DNA of 24,339 bases from a virus, in IMG/VR virus record IMGVR_UViG_3300044691_000633, positions 1 through 24,339 of that record; one strand, given 5' to 3'. The notes under the pieces were generated by a model that saw only the letters and a program-made list of their open reading frames with translations, had not been told where the DNA came from and did no database searches. Below, in pieces: positions 9,947 through 24,302 of the stretch (its first letter is position 1; each line of letters starts with the position of its first letter). The position numbers and the translations under genes were made by a program.

Positions 9947-9972
9947 CCCGCCCGAGGTCAGTCCTCGGCGGG
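9947..9972 (-). terminator. Hairpin at end of the leftward regulator gene
   Basis: A stem of 6 bp (9952-9957 with 9963-9968) plus 4 more (9947-9950 with 9969-9972) around one bulged C, with a 5-nt loop. It overlaps the stop codon of the leftward HTH gene and would stop its transcript; with the 9876-9901 hairpin it forms a two-sided barrier between convergent transcripts. Confidence 0.45.
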
Positions 9973-10191
9973 CGGCTGTTCGGTCGTCTTGGGGCGGCCG
10001 CCCTTGTTGTCGCGGTCCCAGGTGGTCTCCCACTTGGCGACTTCGGTGAGGTTCCAGGTGCGGCCGGCGCGGCTGGTGGCCACGGGCGGGGGGAAGTCGG
10101 CGCGTTTGGCCAGGGCGTATGCCCGTTGTCGGCTGACGTTGAGTAGTTCGCCGATTTCGGTGAGTCCGCCGGTTCTGGGTGGTGTGGCCAT
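9958..10191 (-). CDS. AlpA/MerR-like helix-turn-helix regulator
   Basis: A 77-aa DNA-binding protein and the only convincing leftward gene in the window. Residues 8-30 form a helix-turn-helix (GLTEIGELLNVSRQRAYALAKR), followed by a wing (FPPPVATSRAGRTWNLTEVAKWETTW) and a basic tail (NKGGRPKT). This is the layout of AlpA/excisionase-type and small MerR-like proteins. The ATG at 10189-10191 is chosen because the frame upstream lacks coding character. It faces a divergent promoter and repeats, so it probably represses or switches the rightward block 10367-15074 and itself. An excisionase role is an alternative, but no integrase is in the window. Only weak Shine-Dalgarno. Confidence 0.75.
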   Translation of the reverse strand: MATPPRTGGLTEIGELLNVSRQRAYALAKRADFPPPVATSRAGRTWNLTEVAKWETTWDRDNKGGRPKTTEQPPAED

Positions 10192-10855: not shown

Positions 10856-11274
10856 CCGAGCCCCTGACGCCCCTGCAGCGCCTCACCGCGCTGTACACGG
10901 CCGGCGGCTACGGCCGCCTGTCCGCCCAGTTCGCCGCCGACCTCCTCGCCGAGCACACCGCCGGGAAGGACACCCCCACCCCCGGGGGCGCGTCCACCTT
11001 GGGCAGCGACGTCCTCGACCTGCTCGCCGCGATCCGCGACGCCGTCGACGTGCCGCTGCCCAGCCTCGACCCGGCCGACGAACGGGCGTACCACCAGCTG
11101 ATGTACCAGCGCCTCACCGACCTGCACGTGTCGCTGTCCGTCGCCCTGGCCGCGAAGTCGACCGACACCCTCGACGCCGCCGACGAGGCCGCCTACGTCC
11201 GCGCCCGCACCGCCTGCTCCCCGGTCACCTACGCCCTGTGGGAGTGCCCGGCCGCCGGGGGTGAGCAGGCATGA
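10852..11274 (+). CDS. Hypothetical helical protein
   Basis: A 140-aa, mostly helical protein coupled to the previous gene by an ATGA overlap and to the next by another. Segments such as LTPLQRLTALYTAGGYGRLSAQFAADLL and AYHQLMYQRLTDLHVSLSVALAA look like packed helices; a Gly/Thr/Pro-rich linker separates the first two. No metal-binding or catalytic motif is evident. Its place in a unit that ends with a TraB-like translocase suggests an accessory role there, but this is only context. Confidence 0.6.
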   Translation: MTEPLTPLQRLTALYTAGGYGRLSAQFAADLLAEHTAGKDTPTPGGASTLGSDVLDLLAAIRDAVDVPLPSLDPADERAYHQLMYQRLTDLHVSLSVALAAKSTDTLDAADEAAYVRARTACSPVTYALWECPAAGGEQA

Positions 11275-11657
11275 CCGTGCGCCTGATCACCATCCACACC
11301 AGCGACCACGGCCCCGTCACCCTGCCCTGCCCCCTGTGGTGCACCCAGACCACCCACCAGGACGGGGCCAGGCGGGACGAGATCAGCCACACCGGCCCCT
11401 CGATCCCGGTCACCATCGGTGGTGTTCCCGGCCCCGGCCCCCGCCAGATCCTGGAACTCCGGTTCTGGCAGGACCCCCACCCCGAGGCGGGCAGCCGGCA
11501 CGGCACCGCCATGTACGTCCTGGCGCACCTCGACGGGCAGCCCCACGAGTACGACGCGGCCGGCCTGGACGAGCTCGTCACCGACCTCCTGGAAGCCGCG
11601 GGCAAGGTCCGGTACATGGCGCGGCGTCTCGGCGTCGAGAACCGGAGCGGCTCGTGA
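11271..11657 (+). CDS. CPxWC-type protein, DUF6907-like
   Basis: A 128-aa protein whose ATG overlaps the preceding stop. It shows LPCPLWCTQTTHQDG near residues 18-32, a CPxWC...H pattern with a following ISHTGPSI, that I associate with the DUF6907 group of Streptomyces proteins found on mobile elements. A beta-rich middle (QILELRFWQDP, AMYVLAHLDGQPHEYDAAGLDELV) ends in a helix with LLEAAGKVRYMARRL. The two Cys plus His may bind zinc. Family naming is from memory of the motif and should be treated as tentative. Function unknown. Confidence 0.65.
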   Translation: MTVRLITIHTSDHGPVTLPCPLWCTQTTHQDGARRDEISHTGPSIPVTIGGVPGPGPRQILELRFWQDPHPEAGSRHGTAMYVLAHLDGQPHEYDAAGLDELVTDLLEAAGKVRYMARRLGVENRSGS

Positions 11658-12070
11658 CCACCACCACGACGCAGGCGGCGCGCACCCGGCAGCGCGCCAA
11701 GGTGCGCCGCCTCGCCGAGCAGGGCGCATCCAACCGGACGATCGCGGTGAAGGCCGGCGTGAGCGAGTCCACGGTCCGCCGGTGGCGCAAGGATGACGCA
11801 CCGGCGGCGCAGGAGGCCGCGTCGCCCGGTGCGTCACCGGGTGCGCCGGACGACGTGCTGACCGTGGCCCTGGACAACGACCTGCGCGACCACCTCGCCG
11901 TGCTCGCCGAGACCGGCCACGACGCACAAAGCGCCGTCACCCTGGCGCTCGAAACCATCGCCGACGCCTACCGCTACGCCTGGGACTACGCCCTCACCGA
12001 ACGCGGCACCCCACCCGAGATCCGAGTCCGCATCAAAGGCGATCAGTTGCCCCGCGGGATGACCTGGTGA
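11654..12070 (+). CDS. Helix-turn-helix DNA-binding protein
   Basis: A 138-aa protein from a GTG overlapping the previous stop (GTGA). Residues 12-46 carry a classical HTH (ARTRQRAKVRRLAEQG, turn, SNRTIAVKAGVSESTVRRWRKD), similar to resolvase-type or transposase-type HTHs. A low-complexity Ala/Ser/Pro-rich hinge (residues 47-70) is written by GACGCACC/GGTGCGTC motifs also seen near the translocase gene. The C-domain (DVLTVALDNDLRDHLAVLAETG) looks like a strand-helix-helix, possibly a dimerisation or ribbon-helix-helix-like unit. Could be a KorA/Kor-like regulator of the transfer-like operon; not proven. Confidence 0.65.
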   Translation: MTTTTTQAARTRQRAKVRRLAEQGASNRTIAVKAGVSESTVRRWRKDDAPAAQEAASPGASPGAPDDVLTVALDNDLRDHLAVLAETGHDAQSAVTLALETIADAYRYAWDYALTERGTPPEIRVRIKGDQLPRGMTW

Positions 12071-12378
12071 CCGACCTCAACAAGGCGTCCGCCGAGGCGG
12101 TCGAGGCCGCCCGGCAGGGCGAGCAGTACGCCGTCATGCTCGCCGCCATCCAAGCCGCCCAGATCGCCCAGCAGCTCCAGCAGCCGGCCACCCCGGCGCC
12201 CGTACCGCCGCACCGCGCGGCCGACGGCGCCGGCAAGTGGCTGGCCATCGGCATCAGCGGCTCAATGCTCATGGTCACCGTCGCTTTCGCCGCGGTCGCC
12301 CTGGCCATCGCGTCACTGTGCATCGCCCTGGTGGCGCTCGTCGTCTACGGCATCTACCGCGACATCAGGAAGCGCTGA
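12067..12378 (+). CDS. Spd-like small membrane protein
   Basis: A 103-aa protein from a GTG overlapping the preceding stop. Residues 1-40 are a soluble amphipathic helix rich in Ala/Gln (AVEAARQGEQYAVMLAAIQAAQIAQQLQ), followed by a Pro-rich hinge. Residues 58-97 are strongly hydrophobic (WLAIGISGSMLMVTVAF, then AAVALAIASLCIALVALVVYG), enough for two short membrane helices, ending in a basic tail RDIRKR. The size, layout and position before a TraB-like gene are those of plasmid-spread (Spd) proteins of Streptomyces conjugative elements. Sequence-level family membership cannot be shown by eye. Confidence 0.65.
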   Translation: MTDLNKASAEAVEAARQGEQYAVMLAAIQAAQIAQQLQQPATPAPVPPHRAADGAGKWLAIGISGSMLMVTVAFAAVALAIASLCIALVALVVYGIYRDIRKR

Positions 12379-12392
12379 CGGCCACCACCGTG

Positions 12393-12428
12393 CGGCCGGG
12401 CGCCCTCACCACGCAGGGCACCCGGCCG
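12393..12428 (+). terminator. Hairpin terminator or attenuator
   Basis: Arms 12393-12406 and 12415-12428 pair over 14 positions with a single C-A mismatch and an 8-nt loop. It lies in the 99-bp gap after the Spd-like gene. Stability is very high; no T-run follows. Confidence 0.6.
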
Positions 12429-12477
12429 ACGCCGTGGGGCCGGACAGACCGGCACCCCGACCCGAGAGGACAGCATC

Positions 12478-12642
12478 GTGACCGCCGCTGAACTGCGCGC
12501 CCGCGCCATCAAGCTGCTCGCGCCGCAATGGGACAACCCCACCGAGGTGGACATCGCCCGCGCCGACGTGTGGGCCCGCCTCGCCATCTCCGCCGCCATC
12601 GAGGAGACGGGCCAGGCGGCCCGGCGCGTGGACACCCAGTGA
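12478..12642 (+). CDS. Small hypothetical protein, 54 aa
   Basis: A 54-aa protein with GTG start behind GAGAGGA (12464-12470), coupled to the next gene by GTGA. It is predicted helical (AELRARAIKLLAPQWDN and DIARADVWARLAISAAIEE). The strong ribosome binding site after a terminator hairpin and G/C-rich third positions support a real gene. Similar tiny genes often precede the tra gene in Streptomyces mobile elements; no function is known. Confidence 0.55.
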   Translation: MTAAELRARAIKLLAPQWDNPTEVDIARADVWARLAISAAIEETGQAARRVDTQ

Positions 12643-12812
12643 TCCAGCCCCACCCCGACGACCCGCCGCTGACCGTGCGTGAGGCCGCCGAGATAGGCCG
12701 CATCACCGCGGTGGCCGTCATGCGCAGCGGAGTCCTGACCACCCGCCAGGAGAAGCGCGTCGACCGCATCCTGACCACCGCCAAAGAGCGCGCCGCCAAG
12801 GCCGCCAAGTAG
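12639..12812 (+). CDS. Small hypothetical protein, 57 aa
   Basis: A 57-aa protein starting at the GTG that overlaps the previous stop. After a short Pro-rich start it is helical and basic (VREAAEIGRITAVAVMRSG, then RQEKRVDRILTTAKERAAKAAK). The Lys/Arg/Ala tail could bind nucleic acid. Immediately followed by the strongest hairpin of the window and then the translocase gene. Not recognised. Confidence 0.55.
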   Translation: MIQPHPDDPPLTVREAAEIGRITAVAVMRSGVLTTRQEKRVDRILTTAKERAAKAAK

Positions 12813-12818
12813 CCCCGC

Positions 12819-12863
12819 CCCGCGGCGGCCGTCAACCGGCCAAGGAAACCCGGCCGCCGCGGG
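12819..12863 (+). terminator. 13-bp perfect stem before the translocase gene
   Basis: CCCGCGGCGGCCG (12819-12831) pairs perfectly with CGGCCGCCGCGGG (12851-12863), 19-nt loop. It lies 36 bp upstream of the translocase ATG and only 7 bp after the previous stop. It probably terminates or attenuates, limiting translocase expression; tra genes in conjugative elements are usually tightly controlled because excess is toxic. Confidence 0.6.
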
Positions 12864-12899
12864 CCCCGCACCTCCCGAGAGAGAGCAGGAACCACCAGC

Positions 12900-15074
12900 A
12901 TGACCGAGACCGTTGTCCGCCTCTTCAAGGACCCCGACGACGCACCCGGCGACGCACCCGCTGGCGCACCCTCGGTCGTCGAGGCCGCCGTCATCGAAGC
13001 CGTCACCGAGACCTTCGCCGAACCCGCCGACGCCATACCCGTCGACGCACCCGAGGTCGCCGCGGACACCGGCACATGGGTCGGGCAGAAGCGCGCCTAC
13101 CTCGCCGACGCCCCGCCCGTCATCCCGACCTGGGTCCGCAGCAGTACCGAACTCGCCGAGCACGCCCGCTGGGGCGCCAACTACGCCCTGCACATCGCCG
13201 CGTTCCACACGGTGCGCGGCCCCGTCTACCTGCTGCGCCTCATGGTTCGCTCCCCGCGCGGTGCCGGCCGCCTCATCGTCCGCTGGGCTCGCTGGGTCTC
13301 CGACTCCGAGGCCCGGCCCGTTGAGACGGTCGCGGCGATCGAGGGCGACGTCATGGCGTGGCTGTCGCTGAGCCGGGAGCACTCCCGGCGGGTCAAGCCC
13401 CGCCGCATCACCTCCGCGGCCGTCGCCGGTCCGGTCGCCATCGGCGGCACCGTCGCCGGATTCCTCGCGCCGCTCTGGGAGGTCGGCGGCGCAGCTGCTG
13501 GCGTGCTCGCGCTGCTCGGTCTCGCCGGACGCCGCGCCGACAAGCCCGTCATCACCCGGTACGTCTCCATCCACCTGCAACGGCCGCTCAACTCCGGGGA
13601 GATCGCCGAAGCCCTCGACGCCATCGGCATCAAGGGCGAGACCCGGTTCGTCAACCCCGTCCAGGTCGACGGGCCCGGCTGGCTCGCCGAACTCGACCTC
13701 CCCCGCGGCGTCCTCGCCGAGCGCCTGCTCGACAAGCGCAAGGAACTGGCCGGCGCCATGCGGCGCCCCCTCCAGTGCGTGTGGCCCTCGGTCGGCACCG
13801 AGCACCCGTCCCGCGCCAACCTGTGGGTCGCCAAGACCGACCCGCGCACCATCAAGCGCGCCTGGCCTCTCGCCCACGACGGCCAGGCCGACATGTACGC
13901 CGAGTTCCCCTTCGGCGTCACCCCGCGCGGCGAAGTCGTCCCCCTGGCCCTGATCGGCACGAACGTCCTGATGGGCGGCGTCATGGGCTCCGGGAAGACC
14001 AGCGCGGTCCTGGTCATCGCGCTGGCCGGCGCCCTCGATCCCACCTGCGAGATCTGGGGCTACGAACTGAAGGGCTCCGGCGACCTCGACTCCGTCGAAC
14101 CCGTCTGCCACCAGTACGTCTCCGGTGACGACGACGAGCACTGCCTCGCCGCTCTCAACGGGATGAAGGCGCTGGAGAAGGAGATGAAGCGCCGCAAGAA
14201 GGCGGTGGCCGCGCTGCCCGTCGAGGACGTCCCCAACGGGCGGAAGGTCACCAGGAAGCTCGCCGAGAAGTACCCCGAGCTGCGGCTTCACCCGCTGCTC
14301 GCCATCTTCGACGAGGTGCACACGCTGTTCGAGCACCCCAAGTACGGCAAGGAGGCCGCCGAGGTCGCCGGGCGCCTCATCCGCAAGGCCCGCGCCTACG
14401 GCATGATCCTGGTCCTGACCACGCAGAAGCCGGACGCGGACAGCATCCCCAAGATGGTGTCCGACAACGCGATCGTCAGGTTCTGCCTGGCCATCACCGG
14501 CCATATCCCGAACGATCTGATCCTCGGCACGGGCATGTACAAGCGCGGGATCAGGGCGAACATCTTCGAGCCGGCCGAGGGCGACGACCCGAAGGACTCC
14601 GGCACGGGGTGGCTGGCCCGGTCCGCGGTCAACGCCCGGATCGTGCGGGCCTACTACATCGCGCAGGAACTGGCCCGCGCGATCGGCAAGCGCGGCCTGG
14701 CCCTGCGCATCGCGGCCGGCACCCTCACCGGGCAGGCCGCCGGGGAGGACGTCGACCTCGGCGACACCAGCACGATCGTGGACCACCTGCGCGTGATCTG
14801 GCCCGAGGGCGCCGACACCGTTCACAGTCACCGGCTCGTCGAGGCGCTGGCCGCGTACCTGCCCGACGTGTACGGCGCGTGGCTCACCATCGACCCGGCG
14901 CTCAGCGACAAGGACGTCCAGGCGGCCCGCTCCACGGCCCTGTCCGCCGCGCTCAAGCCGTACCGGGTGCCGACCCGGCAGATCACCCTCCGGGAGTGCT
15001 GCGGCGGCGCCAAGGGCCTCCGGTACATCGACCTCCCCCAGCCCGAAGACGACCCGGAGGACGACGACGAGTAG
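12900..15074 (+). CDS. FtsK/SpoIIIE-type DNA translocase, TraB-like
   Basis: A 724-aa DNA-pumping ATPase. Residues 1-70 are a Pro/Ala-rich tail; residues about 171-190 and 193-210 are two membrane helices; then the motor with Walker A VMGSGKTS (Gly363 to Thr367), the YELKGSGDLDS segment, Walker B LLAIFDE (Asp471, Glu472), LVLTTQKPDADSIP, and NDLILGTGMYKRGIRA. These last motifs match what I know of TraB/TraSA proteins of Streptomyces conjugative plasmids and AICEs, which move double-stranded DNA between mycelial cells. The C-terminal 110 residues could form the DNA-binding winged helix. ATG follows AGCAGGA. In a phage it could spread the genome in mycelium. Transfer itself is inference. Confidence 0.88.
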   Translation: MTETVVRLFKDPDDAPGDAPAGAPSVVEAAVIEAVTETFAEPADAIPVDAPEVAADTGTWVGQKRAYLADAPPVIPTWVRSSTELAEHARWGANYALHIAAFHTVRGPVYLLRLMVRSPRGAGRLIVRWARWVSDSEARPVETVAAIEGDVMAWLSLSREHSRRVKPRRITSAAVAGPVAIGGTVAGFLAPLWEVGGAAAGVLALLGLAGRRADKPVITRYVSIHLQRPLNSGEIAEALDAIGIKGETRFVNPVQVDGPGWLAELDLPRGVLAERLLDKRKELAGAMRRPLQCVWPSVGTEHPSRANLWVAKTDPRTIKRAWPLAHDGQADMYAEFPFGVTPRGEVVPLALIGTNVLMGGVMGSGKTSAVLVIALAGALDPTCEIWGYELKGSGDLDSVEPVCHQYVSGDDDEHCLAALNGMKALEKEMKRRKKAVAALPVEDVPNGRKVTRKLAEKYPELRLHPLLAIFDEVHTLFEHPKYGKEAAEVAGRLIRKARAYGMILVLTTQKPDADSIPKMVSDNAIVRFCLAITGHIPNDLILGTGMYKRGIRANIFEPAEGDDPKDSGTGWLARSAVNARIVRAYYIAQELARAIGKRGLALRIAAGTLTGQAAGEDVDLGDTSTIVDHLRVIWPEGADTVHSHRLVEALAAYLPDVYGAWLTIDPALSDKDVQAARSTALSAALKPYRVPTRQITLRECCGGAKGLRYIDLPQPEDDPEDDDE

Positions 15075-15081
15075 CCCCGGC

Positions 15082-15165
15082 CCGGTTTCACCCCACCCGA
15101 AACCGGTTTCGCCCCCGATATCGGCCCTGTAGCTCGCTGAGCAGGGCTGATATCGGGTTTCGGGT
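15082..15165. other. Dense inverted-repeat region downstream of translocase
   Basis: Several overlapping dyads: CCGGTTTC/GAAACCGG (15082-15089 with 15099-15106); the 14-bp palindrome CGAAACCGGTTTCG (15098-15111); a 16-bp arm pair 15114-15129 with 15142-15157 (one G-T, 12-nt loop) containing two GATATC; and an outer ACCCGAAACC/GGTTTCGGGT (15095-15104 with 15156-15165). The 16-bp hairpin alone would serve as terminator for the translocase gene. The extra nested dyads suggest a protein-binding locus, such as a transfer site, but that is speculative. Confidence 0.6.
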
Positions 15166-17811: not shown

Positions 17812-17884
17812 CGCGGGGTGGAGCAGCCGGTAGCTCGCCGGACTCATTATCCGGAGGCCGCAGGTTCGAGTCCTGCCCCCGCCA
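17812..17884 (+). tRNA. tRNA-Met(CAT), initiator-like
   Basis: A full cloverleaf of 73 nt. Acceptor pairs G2-C71 to G7-C66, with an unpaired C1/C72; D stem GAGC/GCTC; anticodon stem CCGGA/TCCGG with loop CTCATTA, anticodon CAT at 17845-17847; T arm GCAGG-TTCGAGT-CCTGC. The open 1-72 pair and the A11-U24 pair in the D stem are initiator tRNA hallmarks, and the 5' half reads almost like bacterial fMet tRNA. Departures: the third G-C pair of the anticodon stem is A31-U39, and position 37 is T instead of a purine. CCA is not encoded (CTG follows). Elongator Met or lysidine-type Ile identity is less likely. Confidence 0.85.
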
Positions 17885-17886
17885 CT

Positions 17887-17974
17887 GACGCAGCCGCGAC
17901 GCACCCAGTGACGCACCCGCGACGCAGGACACTGCGCCGCCCAGTGCGCCGCGCGATGCGCCGACCGTCGCGCC
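17887..17974. repeat. Helically phased GACGCA/TGCGCC tandem repeats
   Basis: GACGCA at 17887, 17898, 17910 and 17921, then TGCGCC at 17933, 17945 and 17957, and a diverged TCGCGCC at 17968: eight units spaced 11-12 bp, close to one helical turn, starting 3 bp after the tRNA. Two units read GACGCACCC, a motif also repeated at 12939, 12951 and 13044 at the 5' end of the translocase gene. Could be protein-binding sites, arm-type sites of an attachment site, or decayed coding sequence. Confidence 0.6.
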
Positions 17975-18037
17975 GCCCAACCCGCACCAATCACCCCCGG
18001 AGGCGTCCTCATGCCCTTATTCCGACCGGAGTCGTTC

Positions 18038-20580: not shown

Positions 20581-21075
20581 GTGGGCGTCAGCAACGCGCA
20601 GCGCGCCAAGACCGCCAAGCGCCGCCGCGAAGCCTGCGACATGCGCCTCGACGGCCACTCCTGGCAAGCCATCGCCACCAAGCTCCGCTACGCCTCCAAA
20701 GGCGCCGCCCACACCGACGTCAAGCGGGCCCTCGAGGAAGCCGTCGCGGAGCTCTCCATCCCGAGAGAGGCGCTGCGCGAGCTGGAAGTGCAGCGCCTCG
20801 ACGCCGAGCTCGTCCGCCTCGCCCAGATGCAGGCCGCCCTGTGGAAGGACGCTCTCGCCGGTGACCTCAAGGCCATCGACGCCGGCGTGCGCATCGAGGA
20901 GGCCCGCCGCAAGAACGGCAAGCGCCGGGCCGAGTTGCTCGACCTGGACGCCCCGCAGCGGCACGAGCTGAGCATGGGGGACATCGATGCCGCCCTCGAC
21001 ACCGTCAGAGACAAGCTCGCCGCTGCTCATCGCGAAGCTGCGGAAGCTGACGGAGCTGAAGGCGGCGGAGGCTGA
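20581..21075 (+). CDS. Terminase small subunit
   Basis: A 164-aa protein, GTG with GGGAGG at 20570-20575. Residues 6-55 form a basic helix-turn-helix (AKTAKRRREACDMRLDGHSWQAIATKLRYAS), as in small terminase subunits that bind pac or cos DNA. Residues 58-115 are long helices (LRELEVQRLDAELVRLAQMQAALWKDALAG) suited to a ring-forming oligomer, then an RRKNGKRRAELL tail. Directly upstream of the large subunit and overlapping it by 89 nt, the expected order. Recognition site not identified. Confidence comes from both fold features and neighbourhood. Confidence 0.82.
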   Translation: MGVSNAQRAKTAKRRREACDMRLDGHSWQAIATKLRYASKGAAHTDVKRALEEAVAELSIPREALRELEVQRLDAELVRLAQMQAALWKDALAGDLKAIDAGVRIEEARRKNGKRRAELLDLDAPQRHELSMGDIDAALDTVRDKLAAAHREAAEADGAEGGGG

Positions 21076-22615
21076 ACTCGACGCGCTTCTCGCCGCGCGG
21101 GCCCGGAAGGGCAACATCCTCGGCAAGCTCGGCTTCGAACCGGTCTGCAAGCCGCGGGCGATCGCCCGCCTGGCCGGCGTGCCGGAGGCGGACCTGCCGC
21201 CGATGTGCGGCACCTGCCCGCAGGAACGCTTCCTCGGGCTGCCCGACGACGACCTCGATGTCCTGTACGGCGGGGCCGGCGGCGGGGGCAAGTCCGCGGC
21301 CCTCCTGGCGATGTGCATCCGCACCTGCATCCGCTACCCGGGCATCCAGATCTTCTGGTTCCGCAAGACGTTCCCGCAGCTCAACCAGAGCGTGGTCAGG
21401 AACCTGGCCCGGTACAACTATGCCAAGGCCGTCGGCGGCCGGTGGAACGGATCGAAGTACGAGCTGCACTTCCCCGGGAACTCGATCCTGACCTTCGCCC
21501 ACGCGAAGAACATCGAGGAAGCGTCCGCACTCAGCAGCGCCGAGATCAACATGCTGATCATCGACGAGCGGACGACGATGCCGCCCGACGTCGTGGATTT
21601 CCTCTACACCCGCGTCCGCTCCGGCGTTGAGGGCGTGCCGTGCCTCGGCATCCGCTCGGCGAGCAACCCGGGCCACGTCGGGCACGGCGTCGTCAAGGCG
21701 GACTTCGTGGACGCCACCGACTACGGCACCAAGGAGATCCGGGACAGCGCCGGCAGGAGGCGCCTGTTCATCCCCGCCAAAGCGTCCGACAACCCGTACG
21801 TCGGCGACTACGAGAAGACCCTCGAAGGCATCGCCGACCCCGAGCTCCGCGCGAGGATCAAGGACGGGGACTGGTCCGCGATGCCCGATGCGGCGTTCCC
21901 CGACTGGAAGCACGACCGGATCGTCGTGCCGACGTTCGAGATCCCGGCGGACTGGCAGCGCCGCGGCGGCATGGACTACGGCTGGGCAGCCCCGTCGGTG
22001 TACCTCGCGGCGGCCCGCGACAACGACGGCCGGCTGTGGTTCTACCGCGAGCTGACCATGGTCCAGACGCCGGAGAGCGAGCAGGCCCGGCAGATCCTCG
22101 AAGCCAACGCCGGGCTCAGCGTGCTGGTCATCGCGGCCGACCCGGCGATGTGGGGCAAGACCGGCTCGGCGCTGCCCCCCGCGAGCCAGATGGCCCTTGA
22201 CGGGCTGCACCTGACCAAGGCCGACAACGACCGGTTGGGCGGGAAGTCCCGCTTCCACTCCTACCTCGCCGAGGGCCCGTCGTGCGCGCACCACCGCGCG
22301 CTGGGCTGGGCGACGTGCCCGATGCTGCACGTCCTCGACGGCGCGTGCCCGAAGTTCGTCAAGACGATGGGCTCGCTGACCCGCGACCCGCGCCGGCCCG
22401 AGGACGTCGACACCGACGGCCCGGATCACTGGTACGACGCCGGCCGGTATCTGCTGATGGGCATCGGCGGCGGTGCGTCGCTGCTGCTGCACCCGGACGA
22501 GCCCGACGGTGGCGGCCTGCACCGGGAGCTGGTGCCCGGCGTCGCGATCCACCCGGACCTGTACCCGGACCGCCCTGAGGGCTGGGGCGCCACGCAGAAG
22601 TCTCCGTTCGTATGA
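20987..22615 (+). CDS. Terminase large subunit
   Basis: A 542-aa packaging motor. ATPase domain: Walker A YGGAGGGGKSAA (Lys102), the Q/R-rich FWFRKTFPQLNQS coupling region, Walker B MLIIDERTTM (Asp193, Glu194) and RSASNPGH. RNase-H-like nuclease: MDYGWAAP (Asp330), VIAADPAMWG (Asp385) and GPDHWYDAGRYLLMG (Asp480, Asp484), the metal-binding acids. It cuts phage DNA concatemers and pumps DNA through the portal into the prohead. ATG at 20987 lies inside the small subunit with GGGGGA before it; a start further downstream cannot be excluded because the first 30 residues are poorly conserved in such proteins. Confidence 0.95.
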   Translation: MPPSTPSETSSPLLIAKLRKLTELKAAEAELDALLAARARKGNILGKLGFEPVCKPRAIARLAGVPEADLPPMCGTCPQERFLGLPDDDLDVLYGGAGGGGKSAALLAMCIRTCIRYPGIQIFWFRKTFPQLNQSVVRNLARYNYAKAVGGRWNGSKYELHFPGNSILTFAHAKNIEEASALSSAEINMLIIDERTTMPPDVVDFLYTRVRSGVEGVPCLGIRSASNPGHVGHGVVKADFVDATDYGTKEIRDSAGRRRLFIPAKASDNPYVGDYEKTLEGIADPELRARIKDGDWSAMPDAAFPDWKHDRIVVPTFEIPADWQRRGGMDYGWAAPSVYLAAARDNDGRLWFYRELTMVQTPESEQARQILEANAGLSVLVIAADPAMWGKTGSALPPASQMALDGLHLTKADNDRLGGKSRFHSYLAEGPSCAHHRALGWATCPMLHVLDGACPKFVKTMGSLTRDPRRPEDVDTDGPDHWYDAGRYLLMGIGGGASLLLHPDEPDGGGLHRELVPGVAIHPDLYPDRPEGWGATQKSPFV

Positions 22616-22761
22616 GCGCCCCGCCGCCCGACCCGCTCGCCTGCGCCGGGTGCGGCACGACTTACCCCGACCCGGCACAGGCCCGGGACTGCGAACAGAC
22701 CCACGACGGGCCGCTGACGGCCGCCCGCGCCTGCGCACTCATCGCCAAACGCATCTACTGA
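22612..22761 (+). CDS. Mini zinc-finger protein between terminase and portal
   Basis: A 49-aa protein with ATG overlapping the terminase stop (ATGA). CAGCGTTYPD (Cys11, Cys14), Cys27 and His31 make a complete C2CH zinc-finger-like set; the C-terminal helix ends KRIY. Small genes of this type lie between terminase and portal in several actinophages, but no function is known to me; DNA- or terminase-binding would fit the position. Third positions are G/C-rich apart from a few codons. Confidence 0.6.
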   Translation: MSAPPPDPLACAGCGTTYPDPAQARDCEQTHDGPLTAARACALIAKRIY

Positions 22762-22772
22762 GGGGGCTGGCT

Positions 22773-24302
22773 GTGGCCTGGTACACCCGCCTGCTGCACC
22801 CCTTCGGCGAATCCGCCCCGGCCGCGCCCGCGCCGCAGCCCGCCGGCACCACGGCCGCCCGCCTGGGCTTCGAATACGGTGTCGGCCGCGGCGGCCTGAC
22901 GGAGTGGAACCAGGCCACCGACGGTTCCGGCAGCGCACAGAACCGGGCCGCGCAGCTCGTCGAGCTGTACGACGCGTACCTCGCCTGCCCGTGGGCGTCC
23001 GCCTGTGTCGACACCATCGCCCGCACCATCACCGCGGGCGGCGTGCAGCTCAACTGGGACGGCGACACCGGCGAGGGCGAGCAGATCCCCGCCCAGCCGC
23101 CGAACGTCCTGGAGTTGCAGCGGCTCCTCGACTACGTGAATCCGCGGGAGGATATCCGCCAGCTCCTGCGCGGGTGCCTCAGCGACATGCTCGTCTTCGG
23201 GGACGCGTTCATCGAGGTCGTGTGGTTCCTCGGCCGGCCGATCGCCCTGTACTCCGTCGACGTTCCGTCGATGCGGATCATCGCGGATGAGCACGGCACC
23301 GTCGAGAAGTACGTGCAGATCACGGAGCAGGGCCAGCGCGCCGAGTTCACGCCCGAGCAGATCATCCATATCCCGCTCGACTCGCCCCGCGGCGGCGTGA
23401 CCGGTGTCGGCCCGACGCAGAAGGCGCTGCTATCGATCACGACGTGGCTGTTCTACAAGGCCACGCAGAAGGAGATCGGCCGCAAGGGCGTCCCGCCGAA
23501 CATTCACGTGGATCAGCCTCCGGGCATGACCGACGCGGACATGCGCCGCTGGGACGGCCAGTACCGGCAGCGCAACCTCGGCTCGCGGAACATCGGGGCG
23601 CCGGTCATCACCCGGGCCGGCGCAGCCGTCGGCGAGCTCCAGTCCGCGAAACTCGTGGACATCCAGACGACGCTGACGCAGTGCCGCGACGAGGGCCTCA
23701 TGGTCTACGGCGTGCCCCCGGCGCAGGTCACGGTGATCGAATCCGGCAGTCTCGGCGGCGGAACGGGCGAGTCGCAGTTCAAATCGTTCCAGGTCAACAC
23801 CTGTGCCCCGTACGCGGAAGCGCTGTTGGAGAAGGTCAACTTCGCTCTCCTGCGCGCCTTCGGCATCACGGACTGGAAGATCGCGTTCGGAGACATCGAC
23901 TGGCGAGACTCCAAGGTCATCGAGGACATCTACGACCTGCGGCTGCGCAACGGCAGCTGGACCCTCAACAAGTACCGCGACGCGATCAATGAGCCCCCCG
24001 TCGAGGGTGGCGACGAGCCCGTTCTCGTCGACCGGCAGAACCTCGTGCAGTGGTCGCAGATCGCTCGCCTGTCCGAGGCGATCATCGCCAAGAACCAGGC
24101 GCCCGCCATCGCGGCCGGCGCGCAGGTCGACGGGGTCGAGATGCGCCCCGAACCGGAGCCGCAGCCTGTCCCGGCCGCCCTCGCGCCGTTCGCCGGACAG
24201 GCCCCGGCACCGCCCGACGACGCCCCGCTCACGCCGGGCCAGGAGGAGGTGTGGGACCTGGTGTATCAGCGGGTCCTCGCCGAGGCCCTGGCCCGTGTCT
24301 GA
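22773..24302 (+). CDS. Phage portal protein (HK97-like)
   Basis: A 509-aa portal, GTG start behind GAGGGGG (22760-22766). N-terminal WYTRLLHPFG and a Pro/Ala-rich stretch are followed by the core: LVELYDAYLACPWASACVDTIA, DMLVFGDAFIEVVW, YSVDVPSMRI, FTPEQIIHIPLDSPRGGVTGVGP and VYGVPPAQVTVIESGSLGGG. These are the strand-helix blocks typical of HK97/siphovirus portals, where the dodecamer forms the DNA entry ring and docks the terminase. The C-terminal 110 residues are Pro/Ala-rich and probably flexible. Position after terminase is canonical. Overlaps the next start by 8 nt. Confidence 0.9.
   Translation: MAWYTRLLHPFGESAPAAPAPQPAGTTAARLGFEYGVGRGGLTEWNQATDGSGSAQNRAAQLVELYDAYLACPWASACVDTIARTITAGGVQLNWDGDTGEGEQIPAQPPNVLELQRLLDYVNPREDIRQLLRGCLSDMLVFGDAFIEVVWFLGRPIALYSVDVPSMRIIADEHGTVEKYVQITEQGQRAEFTPEQIIHIPLDSPRGGVTGVGPTQKALLSITTWLFYKATQKEIGRKGVPPNIHVDQPPGMTDADMRRWDGQYRQRNLGSRNIGAPVITRAGAAVGELQSAKLVDIQTTLTQCRDEGLMVYGVPPAQVTVIESGSLGGGTGESQFKSFQVNTCAPYAEALLEKVNFALLRAFGITDWKIAFGDIDWRDSKVIEDIYDLRLRNGSWTLNKYRDAINEPPVEGGDEPVLVDRQNLVQWSQIARLSEAIIAKNQAPAIAAGAQVDGVEMRPEPEPQPVPAALAPFAGQAPAPPDDAPLTPGQEEVWDLVYQRVLAEALARV

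Follow-up and report, generated by a model that had tools for sequence, protein, structure and literature searches.

A candidate TraB-clt DNA transfer module on a fragment of a putative temperate actinophage

The IMG/VR virus record IMGVR_UViG_3300044691_000633, a linear DNA of 24,339 bases that was analyzed in full and is called the window here, codes for a TraB/FtsK-type DNA translocase (the motor) on the same molecule as phage packaging genes. Our analysis indicates that the element is probably a fragment of a temperate actinophage with a TraB-clt module for the transfer of double-stranded DNA (dsDNA), which would move the phage DNA across septa or between mycelia. The strongest evidence is a conserved, clade-specific repeat array attached to the motor gene. 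A conjugation-like interpretation of this region had been put forward in an original prediction from the sequence; it is partly supported by our results, and the clt-like array adds support beyond that of the prediction.

The motor gene and the repeat array behind it

The motor gene and the array are located as follows:
12900-15074, plus strand: TraB/FtsK-type DNA translocase of 724 aa with N-terminal membrane helices, a motor domain and a C-terminal winged-helix-like domain
15075-15165, no strand assigned: clt-like array made up of four CGGTTTCG-like octamers, immediately 3' of the motor gene
15101-15122: conserved 22-nt core of the array

Within 80 bp after the motor stop codon the octamer SRGTTTCR is present four times, at positions 15083, 15098 (minus strand), 15104 and 15155. 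In 1000 dinucleotide shuffles of the window, any 90-bp stretch contained at most two copies of this motif, which had been read from the loci of clade A, the group of related motors to which the window belongs, before counting. The clade sets used for the counts of repeats, membrane proteins and terminase or portal genes were cut by identity and alignment length and not by the tree described below, and the clade-A counts of repeats and of terminase or portal genes include the window. At least three copies of GTTTCG within 200 bp 3' of the motor were found in 51 of the 52 clade-A loci, and this is the densest place of the examined stretch. In the exception, L021, the GTTTCG cluster is located 538 bp further on, and locus L028, which aligned poorly over the core in a 14-row alignment, has three copies. 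The exact 22-nt core was detected in 36 IMG/VR contigs, all of which bear a window-type motor; in 35 of them it lies 47-82 bp past the end of the motor match, and the 36th, for which the stretch was cut short, bears the motor as L122. A whole-genome scan found the core once in six of seven motor-bearing genomes, and among 392 Streptomyces genomes it occurred once each in 10, with no hit for the reversed control. A cluster of short repeats beside a tra gene, the mark of a clt, is present here as sequence, and in position and form the array looks like a plasmid clt, the loading site of TraB, for which it is a candidate.

For Streptomyces plasmids, two reports describe GACCCGGA as the target of the pSVH1 TraB (PMC5133688), the recognition of the pSVH1 octamers by helix alpha 3 of the TraB C-terminal domain (PMC3583192), and a clt of pWTY27 that covers the final 16 bp of the tra gene plus the 159 bp that follow, deletion of which lowers transfer 10- to 1000-fold (PMC3583192). 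With pSVH1 as positive control we recovered GACCCGG, which is part of the known target.

The repeats differ from group to group. Clade B, a second phage clade, has at least three copies of CCTCCC at the same 3' place in 22 of 23 loci. Loci resembling actinomycete integrative and conjugative elements (AICEs) contain CGCTAG 3' of the motor in 46 of 66 cases and at least three copies of CTAG in 54 of 66, against a background of about 0.1 per 200 bp. Between the repeats of these three groups there were almost no cross-hits. The C-terminal region of the motor differs in step with the repeats: a large part of clade A has STRQLTIRECCGGAKGLR, a large part of clade B has EYKT.GGRQHVSLDRI, and many AICE-like motors have TGQVWG..GKGANRRGI. 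Because the Actinomadura members of clade A have the same octamer and a somewhat different C-terminal region, motor and repeat are paired by clade and not residue by residue. A candidate clt for AICEs is the dense array of CTAG-type repeats (CGCTAG/CCGCTAG) in loci L029-L086, which lies 0-250 bp behind the 3' end of the motor gene.

Kinship of the motor and its linkage to phage genes

The motor and a 103-aa protein ahead of it had both been predicted from open reading frames, and these frames (12067-12378 and 12900-15074) show the codon-position bias of real genes. The motor contains the two motifs quoted in the prediction, TTQKPDADSIP and LGTGMYKRGIRA, together with a Walker A (GSGKT) and a Walker B motif (IFDE). 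For its two predicted membrane helices, an AlphaFold model built from 71 sequences (pLDDT 83) shows two long helices (151-189 and 192-209), while one segment, 188-206, passed the hydropathy threshold. The fold is FtsK-like, with 6t8o as best match in the PDB (E 8e-15) and the conjugation coupling protein TcpA as the next, and the full model matched solely FtsK/HerA-type proteins in a viral structure library. Judged by its sequence, the motor is intact and under purifying selection, with a dN of 0.156 and a dS of 0.414 against the motor of locus L007 from Actinacidiphila cocklensis.

Relatives were collected from an IMG/VR scan (78 loci), a genome scan and a few named records, which were pooled to 163 motors in 145 clusters at 97% identity; for the genome scan the best 80 of 437 relatives were taken, so that the sampling leans to close kin. 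The tree, calculated by a quick search with SH-aLRT support, has 101 rows: a selection from the 145 clusters, from which motors shorter than 600 aa, alternate AICE-like rows and some of the phage rows with 50-54% were omitted, plus three outside motors. In this tree, in which long branches meet and the root is unsure, the window and L007 form a pair (SH-aLRT 99) inside the 43-row clade A (100). An AICE/plasmid group of 35 rows (99) adjoins clade A, and clade B with 20 rows (100) stands apart. A tblastn search with the motor yielded 64 plasmid records, the top three with 36-39% identity over 82-91% of the protein, and 11 phage records, in which every match was local with 21-26% identity. No close match to the motors of either phage clade was present among 50,697 phage records. 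On the basis of the sequence comparisons, the motor groups with the TraB proteins of AICEs and plasmids and not with the FtsK-like proteins of isolated phages.

The PHROG matches of the motor to FtsK/SpoIIIE-like families would also fit an ordinary phage FtsK-like protein as in isolated actinophages. We consider this highly improbable and rejected a generic phage FtsK identity: the FtsK-like translocases of isolated phages, among them those of StarPlatinum and WXIN, are members of the same superfamily, but align locally, over part of the protein, at 21-26% and fall outside the clade in the tree. Such an identity would also leave the array unaccounted for.

The packaging genes of the window follow downstream on the same strand:
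20581-21075, plus strand: small gene ahead of the terminase with the PHROG label Rnase E, in the place of the terminase small subunit
20987-22615, plus strand: terminase large subunit (TerL)
22773-24302, plus strand: portal protein, the last gene of the window

The terminase and portal genes predicted downstream of the motor were thus confirmed, with TerL starting 5.9 kb and the portal gene 7.7 kb past the motor. Terminase and portal on one DNA are what is expected of a tailed temperate phage; their presence does not agree with an AICE, which has an integrase, a replication protein and Tra without phage head genes. A PF00589 integrase was not found in the record, which is a fragment.

Linkage to phage genes is a property of the group. 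Using genes from a simple gene caller, TerL or portal was detected in the examined stretch of 31 of 53 clade-A and 20 of 23 clade-B loci and in two of 66 AICE-like loci; an integrase related to that of the plasmid record L003 was present in four clade-A, two clade-B and 52 AICE-like loci. Of the 78 IMG/VR loci, 50 were screened for portal and terminase families. The phrog_2 terminase model matched 18 of the 50. A portal was found in 34; in 26 cases it follows the motor match on the same strand at a distance of 3.4-6 kb. An assembly chimera was rejected, since 26 of 50 records, including a few near-copies, show this arrangement of motor and portal. In L007, whose motor is 78% identical to that of the window, the motor gene is preceded, in this order, by genes for a membrane protein of 64 aa, a DUF2637-like protein, the 103-aa protein and two small proteins; behind it lie HNH, terminase, portal and protease-like genes, which were assigned by eye and through family searches. 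A Streptomyces cellulosae record combines the cassette with terminase, portal, prohead protease, capsid and tape measure genes according to Pfam; a gene of the S. cellulosae phage (L202:4338-5630) matched no Pfam family at E 0.01 and is integrase-like by eye alone.

The close spacing to the packaging genes could have a different meaning. Motor and array may handle phage DNA inside one cell, for the segregation of replicated or plasmid-form DNA or to feed packaging, without transfer between compartments. The position of the motor 3.4-6 kb ahead of terminase and portal in 26 of 50 records and the role of FtsK-type motors in DNA segregation would agree with this, but AICE-like loci, 64 of 66 of which have neither terminase nor portal, also contain the motor-array pair, as does pSVH1, a conjugative plasmid, and small membrane proteins travel with the motor. 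We therefore regard an exclusively intracellular role as unlikely.

The three packaging genes (20581-24302) are closest to those of the phage-like plasmid pAmyja1 from Amycolatopsis japonica (41-53% identity). They are unlike those of L007, although the motors are 78% alike. In the annotation of pAmyja1, the nearest relative of the window terminase and portal, an FtsK-like gene is absent. Locus L005 (N. gerenzanensis) was weighed as a possible part of phiNon1, a published plasmid-phage, and rejected; its neighbors, a DUF2637 gene and a gene that by eye resembles a primase-polymerase, suggest an AICE-like locus and not a phage.

Genes ahead of the motor and a possible transfer mechanism

Upstream of the motor the following genes were identified:
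11271-11657, plus strand: DUF6907 protein
11654-12070, plus strand: helix-turn-helix (HTH) protein of 138 aa (HTH_23, 4e-7), in the place where many relatives carry a multi-span membrane protein
12067-12378, plus strand: Spd-like small membrane protein of 103 aa
12478-12642, plus strand: 54-aa cassette gene with homologues in three loci
12639-12812, plus strand: DUF6257-like gene, 57 aa

The 103-aa protein has homologues in 63 loci and the DUF6257-like protein in 77; nearly all of these genes lie at most 1.3 kb ahead of the motor start. Among loci with at least 3.5 kb of upstream DNA, the 103-aa family is present in 31 of 41 clade-A, seven of 12 clade-B and one of 58 AICE-like loci. The protein has one strong hydrophobic segment and matched no NCBIfam family; the label Spd-like, used already in the original prediction, is suggested by its size, topology and place. 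It shares 68% identity with its counterpart in L139, a locus with a clade-B motor; neighbors and motor have therefore recombined. In L132 and L133, 103-aa and DUF6257-like genes of the phage type stand beside an AICE-group motor with CTAG-type repeats, which points to a joint exchange of motor and repeats. When the pSVH1 genes ahead of traB were used as seeds, SpdB2 detected seven loci and the other two, Spd79 and Spd108, matched themselves alone, so that no homology between them and the small phage proteins was detected.

From the features described above we infer how the motor would bind and transfer DNA, where it would act and what it would do for the phage. TraB would be held in the membrane via its N-terminal helices; its C-terminal winged-helix-like domain would recognize the octamers behind the motor gene, and TraB would assemble there. 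Phage DNA, either circular or in replication, could then be pumped across a cross-wall or a hyphal contact, and the small Spd-like membrane proteins may help at the septum. The most likely use would be to distribute phage or prophage DNA among the compartments of one mycelium; transfer between mycelia is possible as a second use.

Several results weigh against such a transfer module. The curated plasmid TraB model NF041214 (cut-off 800 bits) did not match the window motor at E 0.1, which places the motor outside this narrow plasmid TraB family; with 33% identity over 353 aa it is, by sequence, a distant relative of the pSVH1 TraB. In the model, the elements of the C-terminal domain are arranged in a winged-helix-like order, and the structural matches of this domain are weak, with no firm fold match. 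The predicted HTH gene is present upstream, but it is not of the GntR type and is unlike the regulators annotated on pSVH1 and pIJ101. A search of plasmids with the L119 protein as query found no member of the 103-aa family, and a Spd role of this family is therefore assigned by analogy. None of the window proteins has more than one strong membrane segment by hydropathy, so a multi-span protein of the SpdB2/DUF2637 type is lacking in the window. A crude hydropathy count placed a multi-span membrane protein upstream of the motor in 29 of the 41 clade-A relatives (window excluded) whose upstream DNA was long enough; the full conjugation-like set of the original prediction is thus true of the group but not of this fragment. 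The prediction had also named a firm placement with phage-only homologs as a result that would speak against it. The motor is closer to the TraB of Streptomyces and AICEs than to the FtsK of isolated phages, but its own clade is mostly prophage-linked (31 of 53 loci), which goes some way in that direction.

The missing part of the usual cassette would also fit an inert remnant of recombination with a plasmid or an AICE that has no present function in the phage. This is very unlikely, as the motor is apparently intact and under purifying selection and as array and motor have been kept together across 52 clade-A loci.

The TraB-clt systems of Streptomyces plasmids are among the closest known counterparts. 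The window shares with pSVH1, pIJ101 and pWTY27 a membrane-anchored FtsK-type motor, for which a C-terminal recognition domain is predicted, with pSVH1 and pWTY27 short repeats directly 3' of the motor gene, in a position that matches the proven clt of pWTY27, and with pSVH1 small membrane protein genes ahead of the motor. In contrast to these plasmids it has its own octamer and terminase and portal genes nearby, and has neither a GntR regulator nor a multi-span Spd protein. AICEs have the sister motor group in the tree and repeats 3' of the motor, and share DUF2637 neighbors with other phage members; unlike the window, AICE-like loci have CGCTAG-type repeats and an integrase near the motor, and TerL or portal in two of 66 cases.

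The combination of phage and conjugation in one Streptomyces element has a precedent in pZL12, with a different motor. In the literature, pZL12 is cited for its replication, its transfer and a plasmid/lytic cycle, as a plasmid-phage of Streptomyces. Like the window, pZL12/phage ZL12 joins phage genes and an FtsK-like gene on one element, but its FtsK-like protein is no more than a distant relative of the window motor, with 26% identity over 170 aa (E 0.003). The Pseudonocardia alni plasmid record pPaSha2 has terminase, portal, protease, capsid and holin genes, a DUF2637 protein and a related motor (39% over 82% of the window motor); in contrast to the window, this motor belongs to the AICE-like group and the window-type repeat was not found 3' of it. 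A literature search for TraB or clt in Streptomyces phages, with poor coverage of subscription papers, retrieved nothing on point.

More tentatively, a widespread set of as yet uncultured temperate phages of actinomycetes, from at least two motor clades, may carry TraB-clt modules of their own, with loading sites specific to each clade, for a virion-free passage of their dsDNA genome between mycelia and act as dual-mode elements, with motor and loading site as an exchangeable cartridge of AICEs, plasmids and phages. Should this hold, one group of actinomycete phages would have a second way to spread, independent of virions, which would explain how phages cross septate mycelium, and host DNA might move too. 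The loading site would be a short array, a candidate recognition region is defined, and the clades offer a natural comparison of specificity; the same comparison yields candidate clt sites for AICE-like elements.

Remaining features of the record

Besides many small genes on the plus strand, the first part of the window contains the following genes:
47-1516, plus strand: UvrD-type helicase
3032-3937, plus strand: O-like replication initiator, a phage replication gene
4156-5481, plus strand: DnaB-type helicase, a phage replication gene
6178-6666, plus strand: SSB

Tandem repeats of 33-36 bp are located at 3311-3561 inside the gene of the O-like initiator. In some phages, with lambda as the case compared, the replication origin lies within the initiator gene. 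A tRNA-Met (cat) followed by short tandem repeats occupies the non-coding stretch 17812-17979 and may be a phage-borne tRNA or an attachment site. The sole confident gene on the minus strand (9958-10191) codes for an AlpA/excisionase-like HTH protein, which hints at a lysogeny switch.

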